Shown here one piece after another: positions 377 to 43,778 of a stretch of DNA of 43,852 bases. The notes below the pieces were generated by a model that ran no database searches, had not been told where the DNA came from, and was given only the letters and a program-made list of their open reading frames with translations. The position numbers and the translations under genes are program-made. Every line of letters begins with the position of its first letter. The stretch's first letter is position 1. This DNA comes from a virus, in IMG/VR virus record IMGVR_UViG_3300050821_012333, positions 1 to 43,852 of that record. One strand, written 5' to 3'.

Positions 377-709
377 TCAACGAGATCGAGCGAAGCCCTG
401 GTCGACGGCGGTGCGTCGCGAGTGACAGGCATGGCAGAAGGCGCGGAGGTTGCTCCACTCCAAGCGAAGGTCGGGTCGTTGCCTCACGCTCTTGATGTGA
501 TCAGCGTCGGTGCTTGGCCTGCCGCAGCGAGGCGTCGAGCACGTTGGATGGTAGGTGATGAAGCGAAGGCGAAGCGCACGCCAATCGCTATCGTAACCAC
601 GCTCTACAGATGATGGACGCTGGGCATCCTTGCGGCGCTGGCGCTCTCGCTCTGCTACGTCACGAGGCTTCCACCACGGTGGCCGATGGCTGGGCGCGCG
701 AGTGGGCAG
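377..709 (-). CDS. HNH endonuclease (packaging associated), non-standard start
   Basis: A frame of about 110 codons encodes a clear phage HNH nuclease. It begins PTRAPSHRPPWW, then has RGYDSDWR, a first Cys pair (C57, C62), the ADHI motif with catalytic His near residue 71, an EWSNLRAF stretch with the Asn, and a CHACH zinc-binding end. In HK97-type phages this protein works with the terminase at the cos site. No ATG, GTG or TTG exists in frame upstream of the conserved region. The frame is open back to a TGA about 22 codons before the CTG at 709, which is taken here as the probable start. The only in-frame GTG would remove the catalytic His. Alternatives are a -1 frameshift from the gene at 736-978, or a sequence error. 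Confidence 0.75.
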   Translation of the reverse strand: MPTRAPSHRPPWWKPRDVAERERQRRKDAQRPSSVERGYDSDWRALRLRFITYHPTCSTPRCGRPSTDADHIKSVRQRPDLRLEWSNLRAFCHACHSRRTAVDQGFARSR

Positions 710-735
710 GAGAGCTTCCCGCTGGTTTCGTAGGG

Positions 736-978
736 CTACGAAACCGGCGGCTCGGCAGGCGGCAGCACCTCAGCAGCGAGCCGATGATAGTCGGCGACCA
801 ACACGCCGAACGCTTCGTCGCTGGTGTTGGCGTATTGGTGAAAGGCGATCACGCGCTCGTAGACGAGCGGATCGCAGGTCTTGCGGAAGTCGTAAACCTG
901 CTTGTTGAGGCGGGCGCGCTCTGCGTCGGCGGCGGCGTCCTGCTGCTCGACGGTGCTCATCGGCTGCTGCTCGGTCAT
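736..978 (-). CDS. Hypothetical 80-aa protein
   Basis: An 80-residue acidic/alanine-rich protein starting MTEQQPMSTVEQQ. The ATG at 978 has AGAGGAT 6 nt upstream; the longer reading from 1023 lacks such a site. The middle is predicted helical (DAERARLNKQVYDFRK) and the C-terminus is proline-rich. It lies just upstream of the HNH gene and its stop is 27 nt before the presumed CTG start there, so translation of the two could be coupled. I do not recognise the family. Confidence 0.6.
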   Translation of the reverse strand: MTEQQPMSTVEQQDAAADAERARLNKQVYDFRKTCDPLVYERVIAFHQYANTSDEAFGVLVADYHRLAAEVLPPAEPPVS

Positions 979-1033
979 CGCACGATCCTCTTCGGACACA
1001 ACTACCCGTCCGCAAACTGTCAAAGGATTTTCG

Positions 1034-1561
1034 CTATGTCAAACCTGGGTTGCTCGTCGAGACCATGATCGTGTGCCGCTCGCGCTTGGCGCTCACCGCC
1101 TTGTCGACGTCGGTGCGGATCGCTTCCCACAGGTTTAGAGCGCCCTTCAGCATCGGCATTTCATGAATGCCGAGCGGCAACTCGTCTTCGATCCAGCAGA
1201 CCACGATGGGCGCGCGGCGCATGAAGCGGCGCTCGAACTTCGACGCCCAGGCGAGGTAGATCGTCGCCAGCCTGAGCTCACGCGGTCCCATCTCGACGGT
1301 GCCGCGACCGACGCGTTCGAGGTCGAGCGGTCGATAGCCAAGCTCTTTTGTCAGTGCGCGATAGGCTTCGACGATCTCGACGCCAGCCTCGTGCTGGTTG
1401 GGATCGATGCCGCCGGCCTCAGGACCGAGCCTCAGCAACTCGGCCATCGTCCAGGGCTGCAACTTCGCCAGCGTTTCAGGGGTGGGATCGACGCGCTCAG
1501 CACGAACGACGTTGGCTCGACGGCGGCGCTCAGCACGGCGCTTGGCTCGGTTCTTCGCCAT
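1034..1561 (-). CDS. Hypothetical protein with basic N-terminus
   Basis: A 175-residue protein with a strongly basic first 20 residues (KNRAKRRAERRRR), then a mixed helical body containing WASKFERRFMRRAP and CWIEDELPLGIHEMP. GGGAGGT, located within the end of the preceding small gene, is its ribosome binding site. It lies in the leftward block between the small membrane gene (stop 4 nt upstream) and the 80-aa gene. The basic N-terminus could bind nucleic acid, but no named domain is recognised. Confidence 0.6.
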   Translation of the reverse strand: MAKNRAKRRAERRRRANVVRAERVDPTPETLAKLQPWTMAELLRLGPEAGGIDPNQHEAGVEIVEAYRALTKELGYRPLDLERVGRGTVEMGPRELRLATIYLAWASKFERRFMRRAPIVVCWIEDELPLGIHEMPMLKGALNLWEAIRTDVDKAVSAKRERHTIMVSTSNPGLT

Positions 1562-1564
1562 CGC

Positions 1565-1651
1565 TCAACCTCCCAAAAACGCGGCGACGGCCAAGCATAG
1601 CGCGCCGGCCAAGAACAACAGCAGCAGGACGACGATGAACACTCGGTTCAT
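1565..1651 (-). CDS. 28-aa single-span membrane peptide
   Basis: A very short gene of 28 codons. The product begins MNRVFIVVLLLLFLAGALC and ends AVAAFLGG, so nearly all of it is one hydrophobic helix with a single Arg at the N-terminal side. The start overlaps the stop of the upstream gene as ATGA, and GAGGAG lies upstream at good spacing. The stop is followed 3 nt later by the next ATG. The tight coupling on both sides supports it being translated. The function is unknown; it could be a membrane anchor or toxin-like peptide. Confidence 0.6.
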   Translation of the reverse strand: MNRVFIVVLLLLFLAGALCLAVAAFLGG

Positions 1652-1854
1652 AGCGGCAACTCCTCGTGGCCATCATCGGCGCGTGAGCGGGTGAACGAGT
1701 GCCATTCGACCCAGGTGATCGGCGTGCCAAATTCAGCGGCGAGCGCTTCGATTTGCTGCCACCACACGGCAGCGTCATCGGGGATTGCGCCGTGTCGCTG
1801 ACGCCGGGCGCTGCTCAGCATGTGAACGCGGTCGAGAAGCTCGCGGCGCGTCAC
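1648..1854 (-). CDS. Hypothetical 68-aa protein
   Basis: A 68-residue protein, MTRRELLDRVHML..., with a WWQQIEALAAEFGTP segment and a C-terminus rich in charged residues. It starts in an ATGA overlap with the YdaU-like gene and ends in an ATGA overlap with the 28-aa membrane gene. It is therefore part of one translationally coupled leftward operon. No domain is recognised. Confidence 0.6.
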   Translation of the reverse strand: MTRRELLDRVHMLSSARRQRHGAIPDDAAVWWQQIEALAAEFGTPITWVEWHSFTRSRADDGHEELPL

Positions 1855-2495
1855 GACTCGCCCTTCATGAACCGGGAGCGGGCTTTGGCAGCCAGAGCTT
1901 CGAGCGTCGGGTTGGATTTGGCAGGCGCGCGAGCCTGAGCCGCCTGCGGCTTGGGCGAGGGCTCGCGCGCGGCCTCAGTATGGTTGGTAGATACAGACTC
2001 ATGATCTTTGATAGTTGATGGTTGATAGTTACGAACGGGCGTTCCCGTAACCCTATTGAAATCGCTCGATCTTTTTCGCGGATCGTCGCTCTCATCCGGC
2101 GATGATCGGCGGATGATCGGCGGATGAGCGCCCACTCGACTTTTGCCCACAGCCCTGCGCACAGCCCCTGAGGCGCGGCCGGCGCGTCGGGCATCCTCGA
2201 TCCGCTCAGCGGCAAGACCAAGCTCGCGGTCGGCGCGGCCGTTGCTCAGCCGGCCATCGGCGGTGAACCGCAACTTGCCCTTTTTGATCAGCGCGGCGGC
2301 GATGCGCTGCATCGCATGAGGCCGGCTGCAGCAGGCGTGGGCGAGCCGCCGCCAGTCAGCGTCGACCGGGCCGCCGGTCGAGTAGATCATGTTGAGCACG
2401 ACGTTGTAGAGCCCGTGCTCCTCAGTCGTGAGCCGGCCGAAGGTGCCGCCGATGTATTCGTCGGGCGACCAGTCGATGCGGCGCACCTTGCTCAC
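1851..2495 (-). CDS. DUF1376 (YdaU-like) replication-associated protein
   Basis: A 214-residue protein starting at a GTG that overlaps the stop of the resolvase gene (GTGA). Residues 1-75 match the DUF1376/YdaU pattern: SKVRRIDWSPDEYIGGTFG, then LTTEEHGLYNVVLNMIY and a winged-helix-like stretch with RIAAALIKKGKLRFTADGRLSN. The rest is a low-complexity tail rich in Arg, Ser and Pro that ends ALAAKARSRFMKGES. Family members lie in phage replication modules and are thought to help helicase loading, like DnaT or lambda O-type proteins. Its place between a RuvC-like resolvase and small genes fits that. The function is inferred. Confidence 0.7.
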   Translation of the reverse strand: MSKVRRIDWSPDEYIGGTFGRLTTEEHGLYNVVLNMIYSTGGPVDADWRRLAHACCSRPHAMQRIAAALIKKGKLRFTADGRLSNGRADRELGLAAERIEDARRAGRASGAVRRAVGKSRVGAHPPIIRRSSPDESDDPRKRSSDFNRVTGTPVRNYQPSTIKDHESVSTNHTEAAREPSPKPQAAQARAPAKSNPTLEALAAKARSRFMKGES

Positions 2496-3115
2496 GGTTT
2501 GATCTTTCCGGCGACGATGGCGCGCAATTCGGCGGTGTCGAACGGCCGGTCTGGCCACTCGCGCGCTGGCACATTTCGGCGGCGCTGTCCCGGACGAGTC
2601 CGTTGCGGATTTTGCACAAACACGTCGAGTTGCGCCGGCTCGCAATGCTCGAAGGCGACCAGGGCGACGCCGCATGCGTCGGCCTCATGCTCGGTGGCGA
2701 CGATGAAGTCGCGGCGCACGGCGGCGGCGATCATGTCCTTCTTCGATGCCTTGCCTTGCCCGGCGAGCGCCACCTTGACGGTCGAGGGATGGCATTCGAC
2801 GCAGCGCTTGCCGTAGCCAAAGCAAACCTTCTCGGTGAGCATCGCCCAGCCGTAGGACATGCGGATCGCGCGTTGCTTCTCGAATGTCTTGTTGCGCGGC
2901 AGGATCGGGGCCTCGAACGCCACGACCTCGGGCCGGTGATCGAGCAGCATCTTGATCAGCCAACACTCGAAGGCGAGCGCCATCGGACCGAAGTCGTCGC
3001 GCGCGCTCTTGTGACGCTGAGGCGCGTGCCAAGTGTCGTGCGCCGTCAGCGCCGAGCGATCAGCGAAGAACGCCCAGCCTACATGGGTCGATAGATCGAG
3101 CGCGAGCAGCCGCAC
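2492..3115 (-). CDS. RuvC-like Holliday junction resolvase
   Basis: A 207-residue protein with an RNase H-like fold signature. D7 lies in LALDLSTHVGWA, E68 in VVAFEAP, a K-rich strand at STVKVALAGQGKASKKDM, and the final acidic residue D146 in EHEADACGVALVA. These are the expected metal-binding positions of RuvC-type resolvases encoded by phages, which cleave branched DNA before packaging or during recombination. The last 45 residues (QNPQRTRPGQRRRN...) are a basic extension not typical of the core family. The stop overlaps the next GTG. Confidence 0.8.
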   Translation of the reverse strand: MRLLALDLSTHVGWAFFADRSALTAHDTWHAPQRHKSARDDFGPMALAFECWLIKMLLDHRPEVVAFEAPILPRNKTFEKQRAIRMSYGWAMLTEKVCFGYGKRCVECHPSTVKVALAGQGKASKKDMIAAAVRRDFIVATEHEADACGVALVAFEHCEPAQLDVFVQNPQRTRPGQRRRNVPAREWPDRPFDTAELRAIVAGKIKP

Positions 3116-3121
3116 ATCACG

Positions 3122-3667
3122 TCACGCGTTGCGGAGGCTCTCGCGGTTCTCTTCCTGGCCCAGGTCGTAACCGACCCTCCATGAAGCGAACGCCTCGGTG
3201 CCGAGTTGATACGCGCACTCGTAGATGCTGCCGCCGGCACGGCCGATGCGATAGCCCTGCAGGTTGGCGTTGACCGGCTCAGGCCAGTCGGGCGTGCGGA
3301 AAAGCTCGAGTTGCTCGGACAGCGGCGACTTCATCAAGCGCAGCCAATCGCCGGTCGCGCTGTATTCGGCGGCGACGTCGGCGTGCGCGCGTTTGTTGAG
3401 CCGGCGCGCCTGCTTCAGCGCGTCGACATCGCAGCCGTCATCCTTCGCGCCGGCATAGACGTTCGACAACTGGCTCTTGAGCTTCTTGGTGGCCTCGGCC
3501 GATTTGTCGTAGGCGGCCTCGGCGGTGTTTACCTTAGCCAGCCACCGCAGCTTCACCTCGTCCGGCGGCCCTCCGCCGGGCAGGCCGAGCCCGCTGTTGT
3601 GTCCCTTGCCGTTTGCCTTTGGAGCCTTGCGCTTTTTTGACGTGCTGCTTTTTGCCCGCTCGGCCAT
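3122..3667 (-). CDS. GapR-like (DUF2312-type) DNA-binding protein
   Basis: A 181-residue protein. A Lys-rich N-terminus contains the motif GHNSG seen in many alphaproteobacterial phage proteins. Residues 50-105 (LKSQLSNVYAGAKDDG, then DVDALKQARRLNKR) match the pattern of GapR/DUF2312 proteins, which bind AT-rich overtwisted DNA as alpha-helical dimers. The C-terminal 70 residues are different from GapR and unknown. The ATG has GGGAGGA 7 nt upstream, which firmly supports this start, although it lies 134 nt inside the upstream HTH gene. A role in replication or nucleoid control is inferred. Confidence 0.65.
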   Translation of the reverse strand: MAERAKSSTSKKRKAPKANGKGHNSGLGLPGGGPPDEVKLRWLAKVNTAEAAYDKSAEATKKLKSQLSNVYAGAKDDGCDVDALKQARRLNKRAHADVAAEYSATGDWLRLMKSPLSEQLELFRTPDWPEPVNANLQGYRIGRAGGSIYECAYQLGTEAFASWRVGYDLGQEENRESLRNA

Positions 3668-3917
3668 TGGACTTCCTCCCGCTCGTTGGTTTCGGCTCGT
3701 CGATCAGTGATGGCACAGAGGCGTCGAGCCAAGCGGATGGAAGATTTGCGCCGTAGCGATTGGCAACAGCGCGAAACCGCGGTCGATAGCGAAAGGCGAT
3801 GCCGCGCGTGCGCCAGTTGAACAGGCGCTTCGTGCTGATGCCGCCGAGGGCGCGCACGGCGAGCGCCGGGCTGCCGGTCTGTGCGATCAGAAAATTCACG
3901 AGGTCTTCGTCGCTCAT
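3534..3917 (-). CDS. Cro/carph-isopro-like HTH protein, first leftward gene
   Basis: A 127-residue protein. The first 60 residues carry a helix-turn-helix pattern: DLVNFLIAQTGSPALAVRALG, ISTKRLFNWRTRGIA, then FRAVANRYG. This resembles small Cro-like or carph-isopro regulators of alphaproteobacterial phages. The C-terminal 60 residues are a Lys/Arg/Gly tail encoded across the start of the next gene (134-nt overlap in another frame). The ATG at 917 of this kilobase has no good ribosome binding site, suggesting weak or leaderless translation. It directly faces the control region with tandem 10-bp repeats, so an autoregulatory role is likely. Confidence 0.6.
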   Translation of the reverse strand: MSDEDLVNFLIAQTGSPALAVRALGGISTKRLFNWRTRGIAFRYRPRFRAVANRYGANLPSAWLDASVPSLIDEPKPTSGRKSNGRAGKKQHVKKAQGSKGKRQGTQQRARPARRRAAGRGEAAVAG

Positions 3918-4140
3918 GCTCGCGCTTTAAGAAACGAAATGTGAGTCGTCCACTGATTTCGGCCCGCTGAAAAAAATATTTTTGGGCGAGTTTGTTTCCC
4001 TCCGCTTCTCATCGTTCCCCATCGTTTCCCATCGTTTTTTTCATTGCGCGTCGGATTGGGCGGCGGGACTTGTCGCCGCGTTTCGAGTGGGCGTAGGAGT
4101 CGACTCACTCGACGAACGCGTGAAGGGGAGAGGCAACAGA
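3918..4140. promoter_or_regulatory. Divergent control region between leftward and rightward genes
   Basis: A 223-nt region with leftward genes on one side and rightward genes on the other, so it must hold at least two promoters. It contains a 12-bp AT palindrome (AAAAATATTTTT, 3972-3983) bracketed by GCCC/GGGC. Three 10-bp direct repeats starting CATCGTT follow at 4010, 4020 and 4030. A related GTTTCCC lies at 3994. Exact spacing of one helical turn suggests side-by-side binding of a regulator. Clear sigma-70 boxes could not be assigned. Readings of an ORF across this region (3914-4108, minus) were rejected. Confidence 0.65.
4010..4039 (+). repeat. Three 10-bp tandem repeats, candidate operator
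   Basis: Three consecutive copies of a 10-bp unit beginning CATCGTT, differing only in the last three bases (CCC, TCC, TTT). The period is exactly 10 bp, which places each copy on the same DNA face. They sit about 100 nt upstream of the first rightward gene and about 95 nt from the leftward HTH gene. Confidence 0.7.
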
Positions 4141-4260
4141 ATGTTTCCAGCAGTGCCAGCCGCGAAACGTCGCCGCCGTCGCCGCGTGATCAGCGTCGCT
4201 TGGTACCTCGGCATCTTCATCGTCTTCCTGGCCGCGTTCGACATGATGGGCGGGCGATGA
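4141..4260 (+). CDS. 39-aa basic membrane peptide, first rightward gene
   Basis: A 39-residue product: an N-terminal MFPAVPAAK followed by six Arg, then one hydrophobic helix (VISVAWYLGIFIVFLAAF) and a short tail. The ATG at 4141 is preceded by GGGGAGAGG at suitable spacing; a longer in-frame start at 3982 would cross the control region and is not accepted. The stop overlaps the next ATG. The Arg cluster before a single span suggests a cytoplasmic N-terminus. The function is unknown. Confidence 0.6.
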   Translation: MFPAVPAAKRRRRRRVISVAWYLGIFIVFLAAFDMMGGR

Positions 4261-4586
4261 TGATGAAGGACGCGCCCACCACGAAGGCTAAGCAGCGCGA
4301 CGCGCTCGCGCACGCCAATCGGATGCTGCGCTATGCCTACGCCACCGAGTCGTGGTCGCAAGTCGACGCCGTGATCGCGCTGCTCGATCAACTCAGCGTC
4401 GAGATGCGCAATCGGCCGCCGCTGCAGCGCGGACGTGTCACCGCCGACAGCGTCACACCAGCCAAGGTCGCCGAGGTCCTGGCGCTGCGCGCCGAGCAGC
4501 CGAAGCTGGCGCAAAAGGAAATCGCCCTGCGCCTGAGGATCGACGTCGGTCGAGTCTCTGAAATCCTGCACGGCAAGCGGACATGA
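4257..4586 (+). CDS. Small HTH protein (GRVSEIL-type)
   Basis: A 109-residue protein starting MMMKDAPTTKAKQRD, overlapping the previous stop. Residues 35-55 form a helix (QVDAVIALLDQLSVEM). The C-terminal 45 residues end in an HTH of the type QKEIALRLRIDVGRVSEIL-GKR, seen in small phage and alphaproteobacterial DNA-binding proteins. The position as second rightward gene suits an early regulator. A longer reading from 4044 is rejected because its N-terminus is only the antisense-like frame of the 39-aa gene. Confidence 0.65.
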   Translation: MMMKDAPTTKAKQRDALAHANRMLRYAYATESWSQVDAVIALLDQLSVEMRNRPPLQRGRVTADSVTPAKVAEVLALRAEQPKLAQKEIALRLRIDVGRVSEILHGKRT

Positions 4587-4633
4587 ATACCGCCGGCAAT
4601 TCCGCCGGTGGTTCGCCTGAGGAGACCACCACC

Positions 4634-5014
4634 ATGACCGACAACAACTCAATCGGACGTCGCCCGCCGTCGCTGCCCACCGAGTTGAGTGGATGGAAGT
4701 TGAAGGTCAAAAATCGGCAGACGTTTAACGACCGCGTGCAGGCTTTGCATGAAGCGCTGATCAGCGACGAGAAACTCAAGGACGAGTATTTGGCACTGCT
4801 CTTCGGCGTCGATGAAGGCAGCTACGTCGAGGGCAGTGAGGAGGCCGACGACTTCAGCGCCGCCACCATGCTTCGCAACTACGCCACGCGCCAGCACGAC
4901 ACCGTGGTTGAGAAGGCCAAGCTGCATCCGGTGCAGCGCGCGCTCAGGGTCGTGCTGCGGCGTTACGTAGACGGCAGCCGCAGCGACCGCGCCCAACAGA
5001 TGGCTGCCGAATGA
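4634..5014 (+). CDS. Hypothetical 126-aa protein
   Basis: A 126-residue protein starting MTDNNSIGRRPPSLPTELSGWKLK. GAGGAG lies at good distance before this ATG. An earlier in-frame ATG at 4583 overlaps the upstream stop and would add 17 residues, but has a weaker site. The body is acidic and helical (LHEALISDEKLKDEYLALLFGVDEG), and a basic C-terminal helix contains RALRVVLRRYVDG. It overlaps the ParB-like gene by 4 nt. No family is recognised. Confidence 0.6.
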   Translation: MTDNNSIGRRPPSLPTELSGWKLKVKNRQTFNDRVQALHEALISDEKLKDEYLALLFGVDEGSYVEGSEEADDFSAATMLRNYATRQHDTVVEKAKLHPVQRALRVVLRRYVDGSRSDRAQQMAAE

Positions 5015-38587: not shown

Positions 38588-40309
38588 TCAGATGATGAAG
38601 ATCGACTGGTCGCCGCCCTGGAGCGACGCGCTGTAGCGGCCGATGGCCATGATCAGCGCGCACATGCCGTCGATGCGGCCGATGCTGTGCTGCTTGTGCG
38701 GCATCTCGTTCAGGTTTTTGTCGGTCTGCACTTTCAGGTTCGACGCCATCACCGTCAGCACCGGGTTGTTGCCGTGATCGAGCCGGTGGCCGGCGACGAG
38801 TGCCCGCATCTCCTTGGTCGGCGCGGTGTAGGAGCGCAGGCCCTGGATGAATTCGACCATGTTCACGCCCTCGGACATGAGCTCACCCGATAGCTGGGTC
38901 GCGTTCCATGGATCGAAGGCGATGTCCTGCAGATCGAAGCGCTTTGTATCGGCCAGCACAGCCGCCTTGATCTCGGCGTGATCGATGACATTCCCCGGCG
39001 TCACCTCGATCCATCCCTCATCGACCCACCGCCGATACGGCATGCGGTCACGATCAGCGCGCTCCTCCAGCGTGTCGGCCGGCATCCAGAAGCGCGAGGC
39101 GATGCGCATGCGCCCGTCAGCGTCAGGCTCGAACAGTTTTACAAAGGCGGTGATGTCGATCTTCGATGACAAGTCGAGGCCGCCCCAGCAGCGCGCGCGT
39201 TCGAGCTTGTCCGGGTCGAAGCGGCCCCGGCTGTTCTTCGCCCAGGTCGCCATGTCGATGGCGGCCTCGGCCGAGGCGGTGCGCACGTTCAAGCGCAGCC
39301 GCTTGAAGGCGCTGAGCGCGCCCGGTGACTTGCCGGCCTTGCGCGCTTGGCGCTGCAAGTCGTCGAGCTTGACGCTGATCCCCAGGTTAGGATTTGCCTT
39401 CGCCCAGGCGACCGGGCTGTCCCATTTGTCGCCCTTGTCGATGGTCGCAATGAAGGCGAACACGTCGTCGTCTTCGAGCACGCCCTCCAGCACCTTGGTC
39501 GCGTAGTCGTTCTCCGATGCGTAGACGCTCTCGGGACTGTCATCGCCGGCCGTCGTAATGATCCAGAGCAGCGGCTGGCGGCGCGAGCCGAGCGCGGTGT
39601 CCATGACGTCGAGCAGCGCGCGGGTCTTGTGACGGTGAAGCTCGTCGACCAGCACGCCGTGCGGGTTGAGGCCGTCGAGCGTGCGGTCGTCGGATGACAG
39701 CGGCTCGAACTTCGAGTTGGTGGCGTCGACCGACAGGTTGAGTTTGAAGCGGCTGACGATGCGCAGCAGGTCTGGCGACGTCGTCACCATGCGCTTTGCT
39801 TCGTCGAAGATGATGCGCGCCTGATCGCGCTTCGTGGCGGCGGCGTAGATTTCCGCGCCGGCCTCGCCGTCGCACGTCAGCAAGTCCAGGCCGACGCCGG
39901 CCAGCAGAGTGCTCTTGCCGTTTTTGCGCGGTAGCTCTTGGTAGACGTAGCGAAAGCGGCGCGTGCCATCGCGTCGCTTCCAGCCGAACACCGAGCCGAT
40001 CACGAACCGTTGCCAGCCGCTCAGCGTGACCGGCTTGCGCGCCCACTCGCCCTTCGAGTGACGGAGGAAGCGCGCGTAAAAGTTGATGCGGTGCTGAGCG
40101 ACGTCGGCGCGCCACACCAGCCCGCGCTTCGGCCCGCTCTTCAGGTCGCGGAGGTGACGCTTGCACGCCAGGATGACGAGCCGGCAGGCGACGATTTCCT
40201 TCGCCACAACAGCGCGCGCGTAGGCCGTCGCCTCATCAAGAGCATCGGCCGGTGAGCCTGAGCCCGGCCCGCTAGAAGCGGCCCGTTTGGGCCGTTTTTT
40301 TGCAGCCAT
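38588..40309 (-). CDS. terL: Terminase large subunit
   Basis: A 573-residue protein. Walker A-like ELPRKNGKST (about 125-134), Walker B HGVLVDELH with acidic residues near 222-223, and a nuclease domain with the first Asp in GLDLSSKIDITAF (about 379). This is the HK97/Terminase_1 type that drives DNA packaging. GAGGGACG lies upstream of the ATG. It is separated from TerS by the rightward three-gene insert, so it may need its own promoter in 40310-40452. Confidence 0.92.
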   Translation of the reverse strand: MAAKKRPKRAASSGPGSGSPADALDEATAYARAVVAKEIVACRLVILACKRHLRDLKSGPKRGLVWRADVAQHRINFYARFLRHSKGEWARKPVTLSGWQRFVIGSVFGWKRRDGTRRFRYVYQELPRKNGKSTLLAGVGLDLLTCDGEAGAEIYAAATKRDQARIIFDEAKRMVTTSPDLLRIVSRFKLNLSVDATNSKFEPLSSDDRTLDGLNPHGVLVDELHRHKTRALLDVMDTALGSRRQPLLWIITTAGDDSPESVYASENDYATKVLEGVLEDDDVFAFIATIDKGDKWDSPVAWAKANPNLGISVKLDDLQRQARKAGKSPGALSAFKRLRLNVRTASAEAAIDMATWAKNSRGRFDPDKLERARCWGGLDLSSKIDITAFVKLFEPDADGRMRIASRFWMPADTLEERADRDRMPYRRWVDEGWIEVTPGNVIDHAEIKAAVLADTKRFDLQDIAFDPWNATQLSGELMSEGVNMVEFIQGLRSYTAPTKEMRALVAGHRLDHGNNPVLTVMASNLKVQTDKNLNEMPHKQHSIGRIDGMCALIMAIGRYSASLQGGDQSIFII

Positions 40310-40452
40310 GCTCGACGTCCCTCAATCAAAGCAATGGCAGAACAGCCACAGCGCTCGGCTTTCCGGGCCTCAGGAGCGAATTTGTGAGCGAGGCATTCGC
40401 CTCACCGGGGAGCCCCGTGGGGCCGCCGGTCATCGCTACCCAGGAGACGATC
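40310..40452. promoter_or_regulatory. Divergent region between terL and the insert
   Basis: A 143-nt gap with terL to the left and the DUF3489 gene to the right. It includes short inverted repeats (GAGGC/GCCTC near 40400 and CGGGG/CCCCG near 40410). Promoters for both directions are expected, but no confident -35/-10 pair was seen. Confidence 0.4.
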
Positions 40453-40456
40453 ATGG
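40443..40456 (+). promoter_or_regulatory. Shared translation start sequence, copy 1
   Basis: GGAGACGATCATGG, including the ribosome binding site and start codon of the DUF3489 gene. Identical 14-mers occur at 40869 and 41574. Confidence 0.85.
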
Positions 40457-40791
40457 CTACCATCACCAACACCGCGCCGGTCACTGACAAGCCTGCCAAG
40501 GCGAAGAAGATCACCAAGGGCAAGCGCGCCGCGAAGAAGCCCACCAAGGGCAAGCGCGCCAAGGCGAAGGTGGCGAAGCCCGCTCAGCGTGCCGACTCGA
40601 AGCAGGCTCGCTTCATCGCCGCGATGCGCACCGCCAAGGGCATGAGCATCACCGAGGCCGCCAAGGAGTTTGGCTGGCAGCAGCACACGGTGCGCGGCGC
40701 GATTGCCGGCGCGATCAAGAAGCGGCTCGGGCTGAAGGTGACTGCCGAGCAGGATGAGAAGCGCGGCACGGTCTACCGCATCGCCAAGTAG
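40453..40791 (+). CDS. DUF3489 protein with H1-like basic tail
   Basis: A 112-residue protein from ATG 40453. Residues 1-48 are Lys/Ala-rich, like histone H1 tails, and contain TKGKRA twice (encoded by an 18-bp direct repeat). Residues 50-112 match DUF3489 (SKQARFIAAMRTAKGMSITEA, then QHTVRGAIAGAIKKRLGLKV), a winged-helix-like putative DNA-binding domain common in alphaproteobacteria and their phages. Reads opposite to all neighbouring late genes. Confidence 0.75.
   Translation: MATITNTAPVTDKPAKAKKITKGKRAAKKPTKGKRAKAKVAKPAQRADSKQARFIAAMRTAKGMSITEAAKEFGWQQHTVRGAIAGAIKKRLGLKVTAEQDEKRGTVYRIAK
40513..40560 (+). repeat. 18-bp direct repeat in the DUF3489 tail
   Basis: Two copies of an 18-bp unit beginning ACCAAGGGCAAG (40513-40530 and 40543-40560), period 30 bp. 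They code for TKGKRA blocks of the basic tail and suggest internal duplication. Confidence 0.85.
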
Positions 40792-40811
40792 CGCAGCCCG
40801 CGCTCACCGAC

Positions 40812-40838
40812 GGCCCGCCTGGGAAACCAGCGCGGGCC
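40812..40838 (+). ncRNA. Structured leader hairpin 1 (GAAA loop, bulged C)
   Basis: In the spacer upstream of the second insert gene: 7-bp lower stem GGCCCGC/GCGGGCC, single C bulge on the 3' side, 4-bp upper stem CTGG/CCAG and loop GAAA. A second small hairpin CGGG/CCCG lies at 40849-40862, followed by the shared start sequence. The spacer at 41488-41583 has the same plan with other bases. No T-run follows. Confidence 0.6.
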
Positions 40839-40868
40839 TGAGGCGGTGCGGGGATCAGCCCGTAACTA

Positions 40869-40882
40869 GGAGACGATCATGG
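40869..40882 (+). promoter_or_regulatory. Shared translation start sequence, copy 2
   Basis: Second identical GGAGACGATCATGG, at the start of the 202-aa gene. Confidence 0.85.
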
Positions 40883-41487
40883 AAATCAAATTCAACACCG
40901 GCCGCTCGTACACTGCCGAGGGCCAAGTCATTCGCGCCAAGGTCTGCGCTGACGGCTCGATCATTTTCGCTGACGACTCACGCGGCGTCGACGGTCGCAT
41001 CGCGGCCCCGGCGTTCCCGCTCACCAGTGAGGGCGCGCTGCGCGACTTCATCATGCAAGCCTATGACCGGAACCAGACGACGCGCGATCACGAGACCTGG
41101 GAGTACCTCATGCGCCCGCGTCAGCCCGACGCCCTCAACCAGGGCGGCGCAACGCCGGGCGCGTCAGCGGTCCTGCTCGACGATCAGGATGCCGATTGCG
41201 TCGAGGCCTTCGAGCGTAGCGGGCCGCGCTCACGTCATGAGGAGGAGGCCGCCGCCGACGCCTGGGACGAGATGATCGCTACCATCGCGGTCGTCGCCTT
41301 CATGCAGGCCCTTTGGGAAGACGCCAACGGTCGCCGCCGCGATGAGGAGGGCAAGCGCTCCCGCACGCGGCGCGGCTACGCGCGGCTGCTCAGCACGGTC
41401 GACGGCTTCGGCGGCCCGATGTCGGATCGCTACCGCGCCCAGGTGCTGCGTCACTACTACGAGACCGAGACCTGCCCGGTGAGGTGA
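40879..41487 (+). CDS. Unknown protein of the insert
   Basis: A 202-residue protein. Residues 1-55 look like a beta domain (EIKFNTGRSYTAEGQVIRAKV, GSIIFADDSRGVDG). Residues 55-130 are acidic and polar, and residues 130-202 are helical (WDEMIATIAVVAFMQALWED) with a basic end. No family is recognised. It lies between DUF3489 and the superinfection-immunity gene and shares their leader, so it probably belongs to the same accessory unit. Confidence 0.6.
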   Translation: MEIKFNTGRSYTAEGQVIRAKVCADGSIIFADDSRGVDGRIAAPAFPLTSEGALRDFIMQAYDRNQTTRDHETWEYLMRPRQPDALNQGGATPGASAVLLDDQDADCVEAFERSGPRSRHEEEAAADAWDEMIATIAVVAFMQALWEDANGRRRDEEGKRSRTRRGYARLLSTVDGFGGPMSDRYRAQVLRHYYETETCPVR

Positions 41488-41504
41488 CGCGCGCTCAGGC
41501 CGGC

Positions 41505-41537
41505 CAGCCCCGCTCGGTGAAAGCCGACGCGGGGCTG
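41505..41537 (+). ncRNA. Structured leader hairpin 2 (GAAA loop, bulged C)
   Basis: Lower stem CAGCCCCGC/GCGGGGCTG (9 bp), a bulged C on the 3' side, upper stem TCGG/CCGA, a T-G closing pair and GAAA loop. This is the same plan as 40812-40838 with changed, compensating bases. A second small hairpin CGGG/CCCG is at 41547-41561. Confidence 0.6.
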
Positions 41538-41573
41538 CTCCCGTGCCGGGGCTCAATCCCGAGACCCCTACTT

Positions 41574-41587
41574 GGAGACGATCATGG
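41574..41587 (+). promoter_or_regulatory. Shared translation start sequence, copy 3
   Basis: Third identical GGAGACGATCATGG, at the start of the superinfection-immunity gene. Confidence 0.85.
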
Positions 41588-41820
41588 CTGTTGTTCTTTT
41601 TCTCGTAGCGCTTCCGCTCTACCTCCTGCCGGCAATCATTGCCGGCGCTCGTAACAAGACGAGCGGCACCGCTGGCGTGGTGCTGCTCAACATCTTCTTT
41701 GGCTGGACGCTGATCGGCTGGCTTGCCGCGTTCATCTGGGCCTGCACCGGCCGGACGGTCGCTGACGACCAGCGCGACGAGCGCCGCCACCAGGAGACGC
41801 TGAAGGCTCTCCAGCGCTGA
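41584..41820 (+). CDS. Superinfection immunity membrane protein
   Basis: A 78-residue protein. First span at residues 2-21 (AVVLFLVALPLYLLPAIIAG), a loop with ARNKTSGTAGVV, and a second span (LLNIFFGWTLIGWLAAFIW) carrying the GWTLIGW box of the T4 Imm-like superinfection immunity family. Such proteins sit in the inner membrane and block DNA entry of related phages. The C-terminus is a charged cytoplasmic helix. It is likely expressed in the prophage state as a moron. Confidence 0.85.
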   Translation: MAVVLFLVALPLYLLPAIIAGARNKTSGTAGVVLLNIFFGWTLIGWLAAFIWACTGRTVADDQRDERRHQETLKALQR

Positions 41821-41847
41821 GCCGCCCTCGACGACCTGATACCTGAA

Positions 41848-41873
41848 GCCCCGGCCTCACCGCCGGGGCTTTT
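41848..41873 (+). terminator. Intrinsic terminator ending the insert
   Basis: An 8-bp stem GCCCCGGC/GCCGGGGC, 6-nt loop, followed by TTTT. It closes the rightward transcript 45 nt before the end of terS. Confidence 0.85.
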
Positions 41874-41917
41874 CCGTTGCGCTCAGCAGCAGCGCGGCCA
41901 CCAGCATCACCGCCCCG

Positions 41918-42427
41918 TCAAGCGTCATCGAGCTTGTCGGGCTTCTCGCTCAAGTATTGCGCCAACGGCGTGCCGGCGATCTGGCCAGCGCGCCCGGAAG
42001 GCGCGGCCTCACCGCGCCCGATGCTGGCGCGCGACGCCGGGCTGAAGCCCATCTCGGCACCGGCTCGCATCATGATCAGCGCTTGCCTGTTCACAATCGG
42101 CAAAAACGGGTTTTGGATCGCGTTGCCTTCCTTCGTCTTCACGACCTGCCCGAGCTTGCGCACCTCCTGGGTAGCGCGCGCGTGCTCGACGCTGGCCACC
42201 GTCCAGACGACCAGCACCTCGCGGTCGGTGGCGGTGAGCAAGCCGGGCGAGGCGTTCTCGATGGCATAGTGCCACTGCGCGCGCTGCTCAGCGTCGAACC
42301 AGTCAGGCGGTGCCCACAGGATGCCGACGCCCTCAGGCTCATCGACCGGCGGCGGCAGCTTTGACGGGTTGCCGTGCAGCAGCATGAGGTGAGTGGGCTT
42401 CGCCTTCGGCCCTCGCTGTCCCATCAT
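41918..42427 (-). CDS. terS: Terminase small subunit (P27-like)
   Basis: A 169-residue protein. The start MMGQRGPKAKPTHLMLLHG is typical for the P27 family. Helical body follows (WFDAEQRAQWHYAIENA, LLTATDREVLVVWTVASV, PFLPIVNRQALIMMRAG), which binds the packaging site. The second ATG at 42424 may be the true start, because GGAGACGATGATGG then aligns with the insert leaders. It overlaps the methyltransferase by 89 nt in another frame. Confidence 0.85.
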   Translation of the reverse strand: MMGQRGPKAKPTHLMLLHGNPSKLPPPVDEPEGVGILWAPPDWFDAEQRAQWHYAIENASPGLLTATDREVLVVWTVASVEHARATQEVRKLGQVVKTKEGNAIQNPFLPIVNRQALIMMRAGAEMGFSPASRASIGRGEAAPSGRAGQIAGTPLAQYLSEKPDKLDDA

Positions 42428-43778
42428 CGTCTCCTACTCGCTCAGCGCGCACGTCGACGAACGAGCGCCCGTCGCCTTCGAGCACCGCGCTCTCGCCGCT
42501 GAAGTCCTGCCAGCGCATCACCGCGACGTCGACGTAGATCGGGTTGAGCTCAATCGCGAGCGCGGTGCGGCCACTGGTTTCCGCCGCGATGATCGTCGTG
42601 CCTGAGCCACAGAACGGCTCGTAGACCGTCTCGCCGGCCCGGCTGTTGTTCATGATCGGCCGCAGCATCGCCTCGACCGGCTTTTGCGTGCTGTGGTTGG
42701 TGCGCCCGTCATCGACGTCGCCCTGCGTGCGGTGAACGTTGGGGAACGACCACAGCGTCGATTGCTTGCGGTCGCCCGCCCAATGGCCGGTCGCGCCCTC
42801 ACGCACGGCATACCAGCAGGGCTCATGTTGCCAGTGATAGTGGCCGCGCCCGATCACCAGCGAGCCCTTCGCCCAGATGATCTGCGAGCGCACGTTAAAT
42901 TTTGCGCCCTCAAGTGAGCGCTCGACCGCTGAGGAGTGAAGCCCGCCGTGCCAGACGTAGGCGACGTCGCCGGGGAACAGCGCCCAGGCTTCCGACCAGT
43001 CGGCGCGGTGATCGTTTTCGACGACGCCCTCGGCTCGAACCTGATGTGGCTTGTTCACGCCGGCCCTGAGCCGCCACTCGGGATCGTAGTCGACGCCATA
43101 GGGCGGGTCCGTGACCATGATCAGCGGCTTCGCTGCGCCGGCCAGGGCGCGCTCGACATTGTGCGCGATGGTACAATCGCCGCAGACCAGGCGATGGGCA
43201 CCGAGCAGCCAGACATCGCCGAGGCGCGATGTCGCAATTTCCGGCGGCGCTGGAGAGGCGTCGGGATCTGTGAGCCCGGCCTTGATCGCCTGCCGAGCGA
43301 ACAACTCCTTGATCTCACCGTCGAGGAAACCCGTCAGACCCAGGTCGAACCCGGCCTCCTTCAGATCGCCTAACTCGAGTGTCAGCAGCGCAGCGTCCCA
43401 TCCCGCGTTCAACGTGAGCTTGTTGTCGGCGATGACGTAGGCGCGCTTCTGATTTTCGGTCCAGCCGCGCGCCACCATCACCGGGATCGTCGTGAGCCCG
43501 AGCCGCTGCGCCGCCAGCACGCGCCCATGACCGGCGATGATCTCGTCACGCTCATCGACCAGCACCGGCATGGTCCAGCCCCACTGCCGGATCGAGGCGG
43601 CGATCTGAGCGACCTGCTCCTCCGAGTGCGTGCGGGCATTGCGCGCGTAGGGGATGAGCCCGGCGACCGGCCGGCGTTCGACTTTGTCAGCCGGCCAGCC
43701 CTGAGCTTCAGGCCCTGAGGCCGCCGCCTGGGCCGGTTTCTTGGCCGTGTGGGGGCCTCGGCGCGCCGGCTGGGGCAT
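42339..43778 (-). CDS. ParB domain fused to DNA methyltransferase (beta class)
   Basis: A 479-residue protein; AAGGAGG precedes the ATG. Residues 35-105 form a ParB-like domain (VAGLIPYARNARTHSEEQVAQ, EIIAGHGRVLAAQRLG). Residues 185-415 form an adenine or N4-cytosine methyltransferase with DPPY (224-227) before FCGSGTT (389-395), the beta-class order. This common phage fusion modifies phage DNA to avoid restriction or mark it for regulation. The last 30 residues are disordered and encoded over the terS start. Located at the right edge, next to terS. Confidence 0.88.
   Translation of the reverse strand: MPQPARRGPHTAKKPAQAAASGPEAQGWPADKVERRPVAGLIPYARNARTHSEEQVAQIAASIRQWGWTMPVLVDERDEIIAGHGRVLAAQRLGLTTIPVMVARGWTENQKRAYVIADNKLTLNAGWDAALLTLELGDLKEAGFDLGLTGFLDGEIKELFARQAIKAGLTDPDASPAPPEIATSRLGDVWLLGAHRLVCGDCTIAHNVERALAGAAKPLIMVTDPPYGVDYDPEWRLRAGVNKPHQVRAEGVVENDHRADWSEAWALFPGDVAYVWHGGLHSSAVERSLEGAKFNVRSQIIWAKGSLVIGRGHYHWQHEPCWYAVREGATGHWAGDRKQSTLWSFPNVHRTQGDVDDGRTNHSTQKPVEAMLRPIMNNSRAGETVYEPFCGSGTTIIAAETSGRTALAIELNPIYVDVAVMRWQDFSGESAVLEGDGRSFVDVRAERVGDDDGTARAEGEAHSPHAAARQPVKAAAAGR

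Follow-up and report, generated by a model that had tools for sequence, protein, structure and literature searches.

The two spacers between the three cargo genes of the viral record IMGVR_UViG_3300050821_012333 (IMG/VR; 43,852 bases, analysed over its whole length and hereafter called the window) are best read as copies of one modular intercistronic RNA linker, which joins moron genes at a hotspot for insertions that lies between terS and terL, the terminase genes, in a clade of uncultured tailed phages. With its mechanism included, this reading is given a probability of about 0.5. The element is about 70-85 nucleotides (nt) long, apparently lacks an earlier description, and consists of a bulged hairpin (hairpin A), usually a second, smaller hairpin (hairpin B), and a ribosome-binding site. 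It has a conserved paired structure, a kept bulge and a fixed geometry, it is confined to gene junctions, and near-identical copies of it stand between unrelated genes. It resembles a reusable linker that would keep the mRNA tidy and allow genes to be exchanged.

The cargo island and its two elements

A 1.6-kb island on the plus strand fills the gap between terL and terS in the window (40310-41917). The order of its parts is a DUF3489 gene, a gene for a protein of 202 amino acids (aa), a T4-Imm-like superinfection-immunity gene, and a terminator. The features are as follows, where bit scores are those of the covariance model R1 described in the next section.

38588-40309, minus strand: terminase large subunit gene (terL)
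40453-40791, plus strand: cargo gene 1, DUF3489 protein of 112 aa with an HTH-like fold and a Lys/Ala-rich tail (PF11994, E 6e-23)
40812-40838, plus strand: hairpin A of element 1 (H1), GGCCCGC-CTGG-GAAA-CCAG-c-GCGGGCC (R1 69.8 bits for 40810-40880)
40849-40862, plus strand: hairpin B of element 1, CGGG-gatcag-CCCG, weak
40869-40881, plus strand: ribosome-binding site and start codon of gene 2, GGAGACGATCATG
40879-41487, plus strand: cargo gene 2, open reading frame for the 202-aa protein
41505-41537, plus strand: hairpin A of element 2 (H2), CAGCCCCGC-TCGG-t(GAAA)g-CCGA-c-GCGGGGCTG (R1 78.9 bits for 41505-41585)
41548-41568, plus strand: hairpin B of element 2, GGGGCTC-aatccc-GAG(a)CCCC, ending 5 nt before GGAG
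41574-41586, plus strand: ribosome-binding site and start codon of gene 3, GGAGACGATCATG
41584-41820, plus strand: cargo gene 3, superinfection-immunity (T4 Imm-like) membrane protein of 78 aa (PF14373, E 7e-16)
41846-41873, plus strand: intrinsic terminator at the island's end, found by a terminator scan, with a perfect stem, a CTCACC loop and a T-tract
41918-42427, minus strand: terminase small subunit gene (terS)
42339-43778, minus strand: ParB-methylase gene

The cargo gene spacers that hold the elements are 87 and 96 nt long, and both fold far more stably than shuffled sequence (z = -3.8 and -3.3). H1 begins 20 nt past the stop codon of gene 1 and has its loop at 40823-40826 and a bulged C at 40831, while H2 begins 17 nt past the stop codon of gene 2, has a bulged C at 41528, and carries the loop UGAAAG, i.e., GAAA closed by a U-G wobble. 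Thus, the two hairpins that an earlier note had described from the sequence, each with a bulged 3' C, a 4-bp upper stem and a GAAA loop, are present, both with a GC-rich lower stem. The smaller CGGG/CCCG hairpin it placed after each of them is found in the first spacer but not in the second, where GGGGCUC/GAG(A)CCCC occurs. Likewise, its statement that the stems differ and still pair holds mostly for the upper stem and for two compensating pairs of the lower stem, but much of the lower core, CCCGC/GCGGG, is nearly invariant. The shared translation start sequence GGAGACGATCATG is seen before genes 2 and 3, as the note had it, and also at 40443, where no hairpin A precedes it; this leader of gene 1 (40399-40454) reaches only 16.4 bits with R1. 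The plan itself, which combines a GNRA loop, an upper stem of 4-5 bp, a single bulge and 7 bp or more of lower stem, is seen at two places in the 43.85-kb window, namely in exactly these two spacers, against 0.23 expected from whole-window shuffles on both strands, and about four times in 1.64 Mb around related terminase genes.

Relatives of the window differ in what lies between their terminase genes. In L012, L017, L020 and L042, the genes touch or nearly touch and the junction is empty, whereas in other relatives they are parted by 0.6-4 kb, and on this basis the terS-terL junction is regarded as a hotspot for accessory gene insertion in this phage clade. Gaps with no gene, with one and with several are all represented in L002-L042, DUF3489 genes being the commonest cargo. 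In the DUF3489 gene of the window, a 30-nt tandem repeat (40501-40560) encodes the Lys/Ala-rich tail, the length of which varies among relatives. Pfam and PHROG searches assigned the 202-aa protein to no family; over the first 85 residues, it is similar to proteins of the Rhizobium phages RHEph10 and RHph_Y2. Cargo gene 3 also matches phrog_1039 of the moron category (E 1e-19). A scan of 40280-42000 that covered promoters of the sigma-70-like type returned none. In the insert of L028 (reverse strand, L028 positions 617-4764), an 87-nt promoter-like repeat with ~90% identity precedes two separate gene runs. The ribosome site of terS in the window (42422-42434, minus strand, GGAGACGATGATG) is one base off that of the cargo genes, and terS of relatives differs at the position where the window's terS resembles them.

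Family membership and conservation of structure

The covariance model R1 was built from ten aligned copies that were found by reading the terS-terL inserts of related contigs. It finds 17 matches with 29-85 bits in ten viral contigs, all inside terS-terL inserts: three in L014, two each in the window, L002, L003, L006 and L010, and one each in L007, L016, L019 and L028. Ten of the 17 copies trained the model and score high by construction; the seven outside the training set are the two of L002, which are close to those of the window, the second of L010, the third of L014, and those of L016, L019 and L028. All but one of the copies lie between cargo genes (16 of 17), and the remaining one is the terminal hairpin of an island. 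The covariance-model search proposed in the earlier note did recover homologous copies in related viral contigs.

Outside these junctions, the element was not encountered. Nowhere else in the whole records behind the ten contigs (39-46 kb for several) does a match reach 22 bits, and in the first-gene leaders of the same islands R1 never exceeds 17 bits. No copy was seen in TerL relatives at 40-64% identity. Searching the window against 4227 Rfam families gave no match at gathering score, and with relaxed thresholds the best matches in the island (9.7-21.1 bits) were at chance level and all far below threshold. A DNA search of 50,697 annotated phage records gave no match beyond chance. Among species-level bacterial genomes there was no close host prophage, the nearest TerL being 53% identical, and a search of bacterial genomes for the element, in which a few candidates per genome were scored, gave nothing convincing. 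A pattern anchored on the ribosome-binding site picked out 67 contigs, none of them above 25 bits beyond the known clade, and a match of 21.9 bits in G009 lies in an ordinary spacer and was taken as chance. Because of the missing Rfam and phage-record matches and the distance of the nearest TerL in bacterial genomes, the element is called a new structured-RNA family, albeit of a known kind, namely intergenic stem-loop cassettes and 3'-end hairpins.

The broad pattern GCCCGC-N4-GNRA-N4-C-GCGGGC is found in many unrelated phages in IMG/VR, about one-third of the matches with a paired upper stem and often with T-tracts. These matches reach at most 37 bits with R1 and mostly have no hairpin B, and they were rejected as family members and treated as convergent or pattern-selected. 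In unrelated viral contigs (L083, L086, L088, L100, L102, L112, L126, L141, L145, L147 and L148), GCCCGC-CAGG/CAGA-GNRA-CCTG/TCTG-C-GCGGGC directly precedes CATTTGCTTTGGAGACCGC and a start codon. This is apparently a second bulged GNRA leader hairpin with a compensated pair, of independent origin.

Within the family, the conserved and covarying RNA structure suspected from the two window copies is borne out. In the 17-row alignment, 94.6% of cells are paired, and two-sided changes are seen in 38 cells, as opposed to 13 after shuffling. The covariation score is 0.416 compared to 0.139 for shuffled alignments and 0.10 or less when the partners are slid, with the reservations that the good copies all belong to a single phage clade and owe part of their similarity to common descent, and that the shuffle test ignores relatedness. 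A ten-row MAFFT alignment made without structure gives a covariation of 0.378 (0.135 shuffled), and RNAalifold recovers hairpin A de novo. About 12 distinct upper stems exist among the copies, all of them paired. On the strand expected to be transcribed, 12 of the 17 have a GNRA-type loop (GAAA, GCAA or GTGA). A single-base bulge is present in every internal copy listed, mostly a C on the 3' side; the variants are an A on the 3' side in L014 and an A on the 5' side in the second element of L010, in L016 and in L019. The linker contains a nearly invariant GUG. Hairpin B is the weaker-supported part, with a mean z of about -1.6 over 14 elements, and it is absent in L028. Several folds showed an outer stem (P1) between the two flanks of hairpin A; this stem was rejected, since its mean z against shuffled flanks was -0.3.

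Fixed geometry and exchange at gene junctions

The layout is constant from copy to copy. Hairpin A follows the upstream stop codon by 16-26 nt in the 16 internal copies and precedes the ribosome site by 30-39 nt in 15 of them (17 nt in L028). In copies that have a hairpin B, only a few nt separate its end from GGAG, and the Shine-Dalgarno (SD) sequence lies 5-11 nt from the start codon. The element does not fit into junctions at which genes overlap or almost meet, and given that first genes do not have it either, the element marks spaced junctions between cargo genes rather than gene starts or ends as such.

The hairpins at island ends are of another kind. In the window, L004, L005, L007, L008, L009, L010, L016 and L019, they are terminators with unbulged stems and T-runs, and a terminator scan of the window island flagged the terminal hairpin and neither hairpin A. 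The exception is L014, in which the last hairpin is an identical 29-nt copy of the first internal hairpin.

The earlier note's suggestion that a modular element brings genes together at this locus is supported, as one and the same block joins unrelated genes. A block of 81 nt, 92.6% identical between the window and L006, covers element 2 up to the start codon, and while the next gene of the window is that for Imm, L006 continues with the gene of an unrelated small membrane protein. Similarly, L006 and L007 share a 120-nt block (93% identical) followed by unrelated genes. In L009, where the second cargo gene is missing, only an apparent 5' half of hairpin A is left after the DUF3489 gene. Together with the doubled 87-nt repeat of L028, this pattern is what cassette exchange at a shared junction sequence would leave behind, although it does not prove directly that recombination takes place at the element.

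Proposed role and comparison with known systems

According to the linker model, the island would be transcribed as one mRNA. Hairpin A, with its very stable GNRA tetraloop and its place 16-26 nt after the stop, just outside the terminating ribosome, would cap the 3' end of the upstream cistron: once Rho had terminated transcription, or an endonuclease had cut, further downstream, 3'-5' exonucleases would halt at it, thereby leaving the end of the upstream cistron protected. Hairpin B, together with the A/U-rich spacer before GGAG, may give the next cistron a structured 5' leader in which the ribosome site stays open and is insulated from the gene upstream. Being repeated at every spaced junction, the element could also offer the short homology through which cargo is gained, lost or exchanged, as has been argued for the PeSL cassettes of T4-type phages (PMC4503421). 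Position behind the terminating ribosome, high stability and the tetraloop would all agree with a 3'-end cap. The intercistronic hairpin of Escherichia coli galE, with an 8-bp stem and a 4-nt loop, has been shown experimentally to block exonucleases and set the 3' end (PMC11925234). Against the model stand the modest support for hairpin B and its absence in L028, and some copies of that hairpin could be weak terminators, such as that of the second L003 element, which ends in TTTTTT.

The single kept bulge would be superfluous for blocking exonucleases and suggests a more specific recognition. As the 3'-cap account does not explain it, a protein-binding role stays in view. Here, a phage or host protein would bind the bulged GNRA hairpin as a cis-regulatory RNA and switch translation or processing of all cargo genes together, acting like coat or replicase operators. 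The bulge keeps its height, 4-5 bp below the mostly GNRA-type loop, despite changes of base and side, the GUG of the linker hardly varies, and the island often encodes the basic, HTH-like DUF3489 protein, all of which favour this proposal. However, the varying base and side of the bulge argue against a base-specific reading, no DUF3489 gene was picked out in the element-bearing inserts of L006, L007 and L028, and no Rfam family, regulators included, matches. Furthermore, the SD has unpaired probabilities of 0.01-0.77 among the 16 copies without any pattern, the ribosome site not being consistently paired as in an RNA thermometer, and the regulatory leader named in the earlier note found no positive support. 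Such control is considered rather unlikely. Its broadest form, a new class of cis-acting RNA in which each transferable gene cassette carries the bulged hairpin and hairpin B and a common protein reads them all for shared post-transcriptional control, is quite doubtful.

Terminator wear could be speculated upon as well: each moron may have brought its own terminator, of which hairpin A, or A and B together, is a weak or worn remnant that lowers downstream expression as an attenuator. The L014 hairpin that serves both internally and as the last of its island, there with a short T-run, the T-tracts often found with same-plan hairpins picked by pattern in unrelated phages, and the T-run after hairpin B in L003 would fit, yet internal copies of hairpin A have no T-tract, neither of those in the window was flagged, and remnants would not retain 95% pairing and a constant bulge, which makes this origin unlikely. 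For RNase III, the 11-13 bp available in hairpin A are short, and RNase E favours A/U-rich single strands. Cleavage of hairpin A by RNase III, or at flanking RNase E sites, to split a polycistronic message as in T7 would suit a stable hairpin of 11-13 bp that lies between cistrons, with a hairpin of its own for the 5' end of the next one, but it meets short stems and a GC-rich linker and is held to be improbable. The RNA-processing site and the plain mRNA-stabilising hairpin of the earlier note cannot be separated by sequence; nevertheless, a merely generic hairpin is less likely since the bulge is kept in every copy. Finally, the modular sharing between unrelated junctions might point to a mobile or recombination element acting as DNA, with the folded single strand as substrate, like attC or REP sequences. 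Against this, the two spacers inspected by eye have neither the GTTRRRY/RYYYAAC core boxes of integron attC sites nor a GTAG-type REP head, no recombinase or RAYT-type gene was noted among the cargo open reading frames, and the GNRA loop and the orientation towards the SD indicate RNA, so that this explanation is very improbable.

Small accessory genes are exchanged among phages all the time, and little is known about how an incoming gene is wired into expression so that its neighbours come to no harm; for such wiring outside T4-type phages, the element offers a concrete candidate. R1 provides a sequence handle for seeking cargo islands in uncultured phages. Since a superinfection-immunity gene is among the cargo, how strongly a function in phage resistance is expressed may depend on the element.

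Among phage RNA operators, the coat operators of MS2 and PP7, lambda boxB, and HK022 put are likewise short hairpins, bulged or of the GNRA type, that lie in leaders or close to start codons. The element differs from them in its loop, bulge base and bulge side and in occurring in several copies per operon, and its partner protein is hypothetical. With the galE hairpin and stabilisers of the REP/BIME type it shares a stable tetraloop hairpin after a stop codon within an operon, whereas its bulge is kept, it covaries as a family, and successive junctions repeat it, each time with a fixed second part. The PeSL (promoter early - stem-loop) cassettes of T4-type phages are described as short regulatory sequences with a stem-loop that recur in the intergenic gaps where small accessory genes of a variable region meet, and they are taken to mediate gene shuffling (PMC4503421). 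Compared by that description only, the element likewise recurs at junctions of exchangeable genes (window, L006 and L007), but PeSL joins an early promoter to a stem-loop, while the element has no sigma-70 promoter in 40280-42000, its hairpin A has no terminator tail, and a second hairpin and a ribosome site come after it. Lastly, the island resembles the moron loci of temperate phages in that accessory genes, one of them for superinfection immunity, lie opposite the packaging genes' strand with their own terminator; here, in contrast, one shared RNA element links several cargo genes in a chain.
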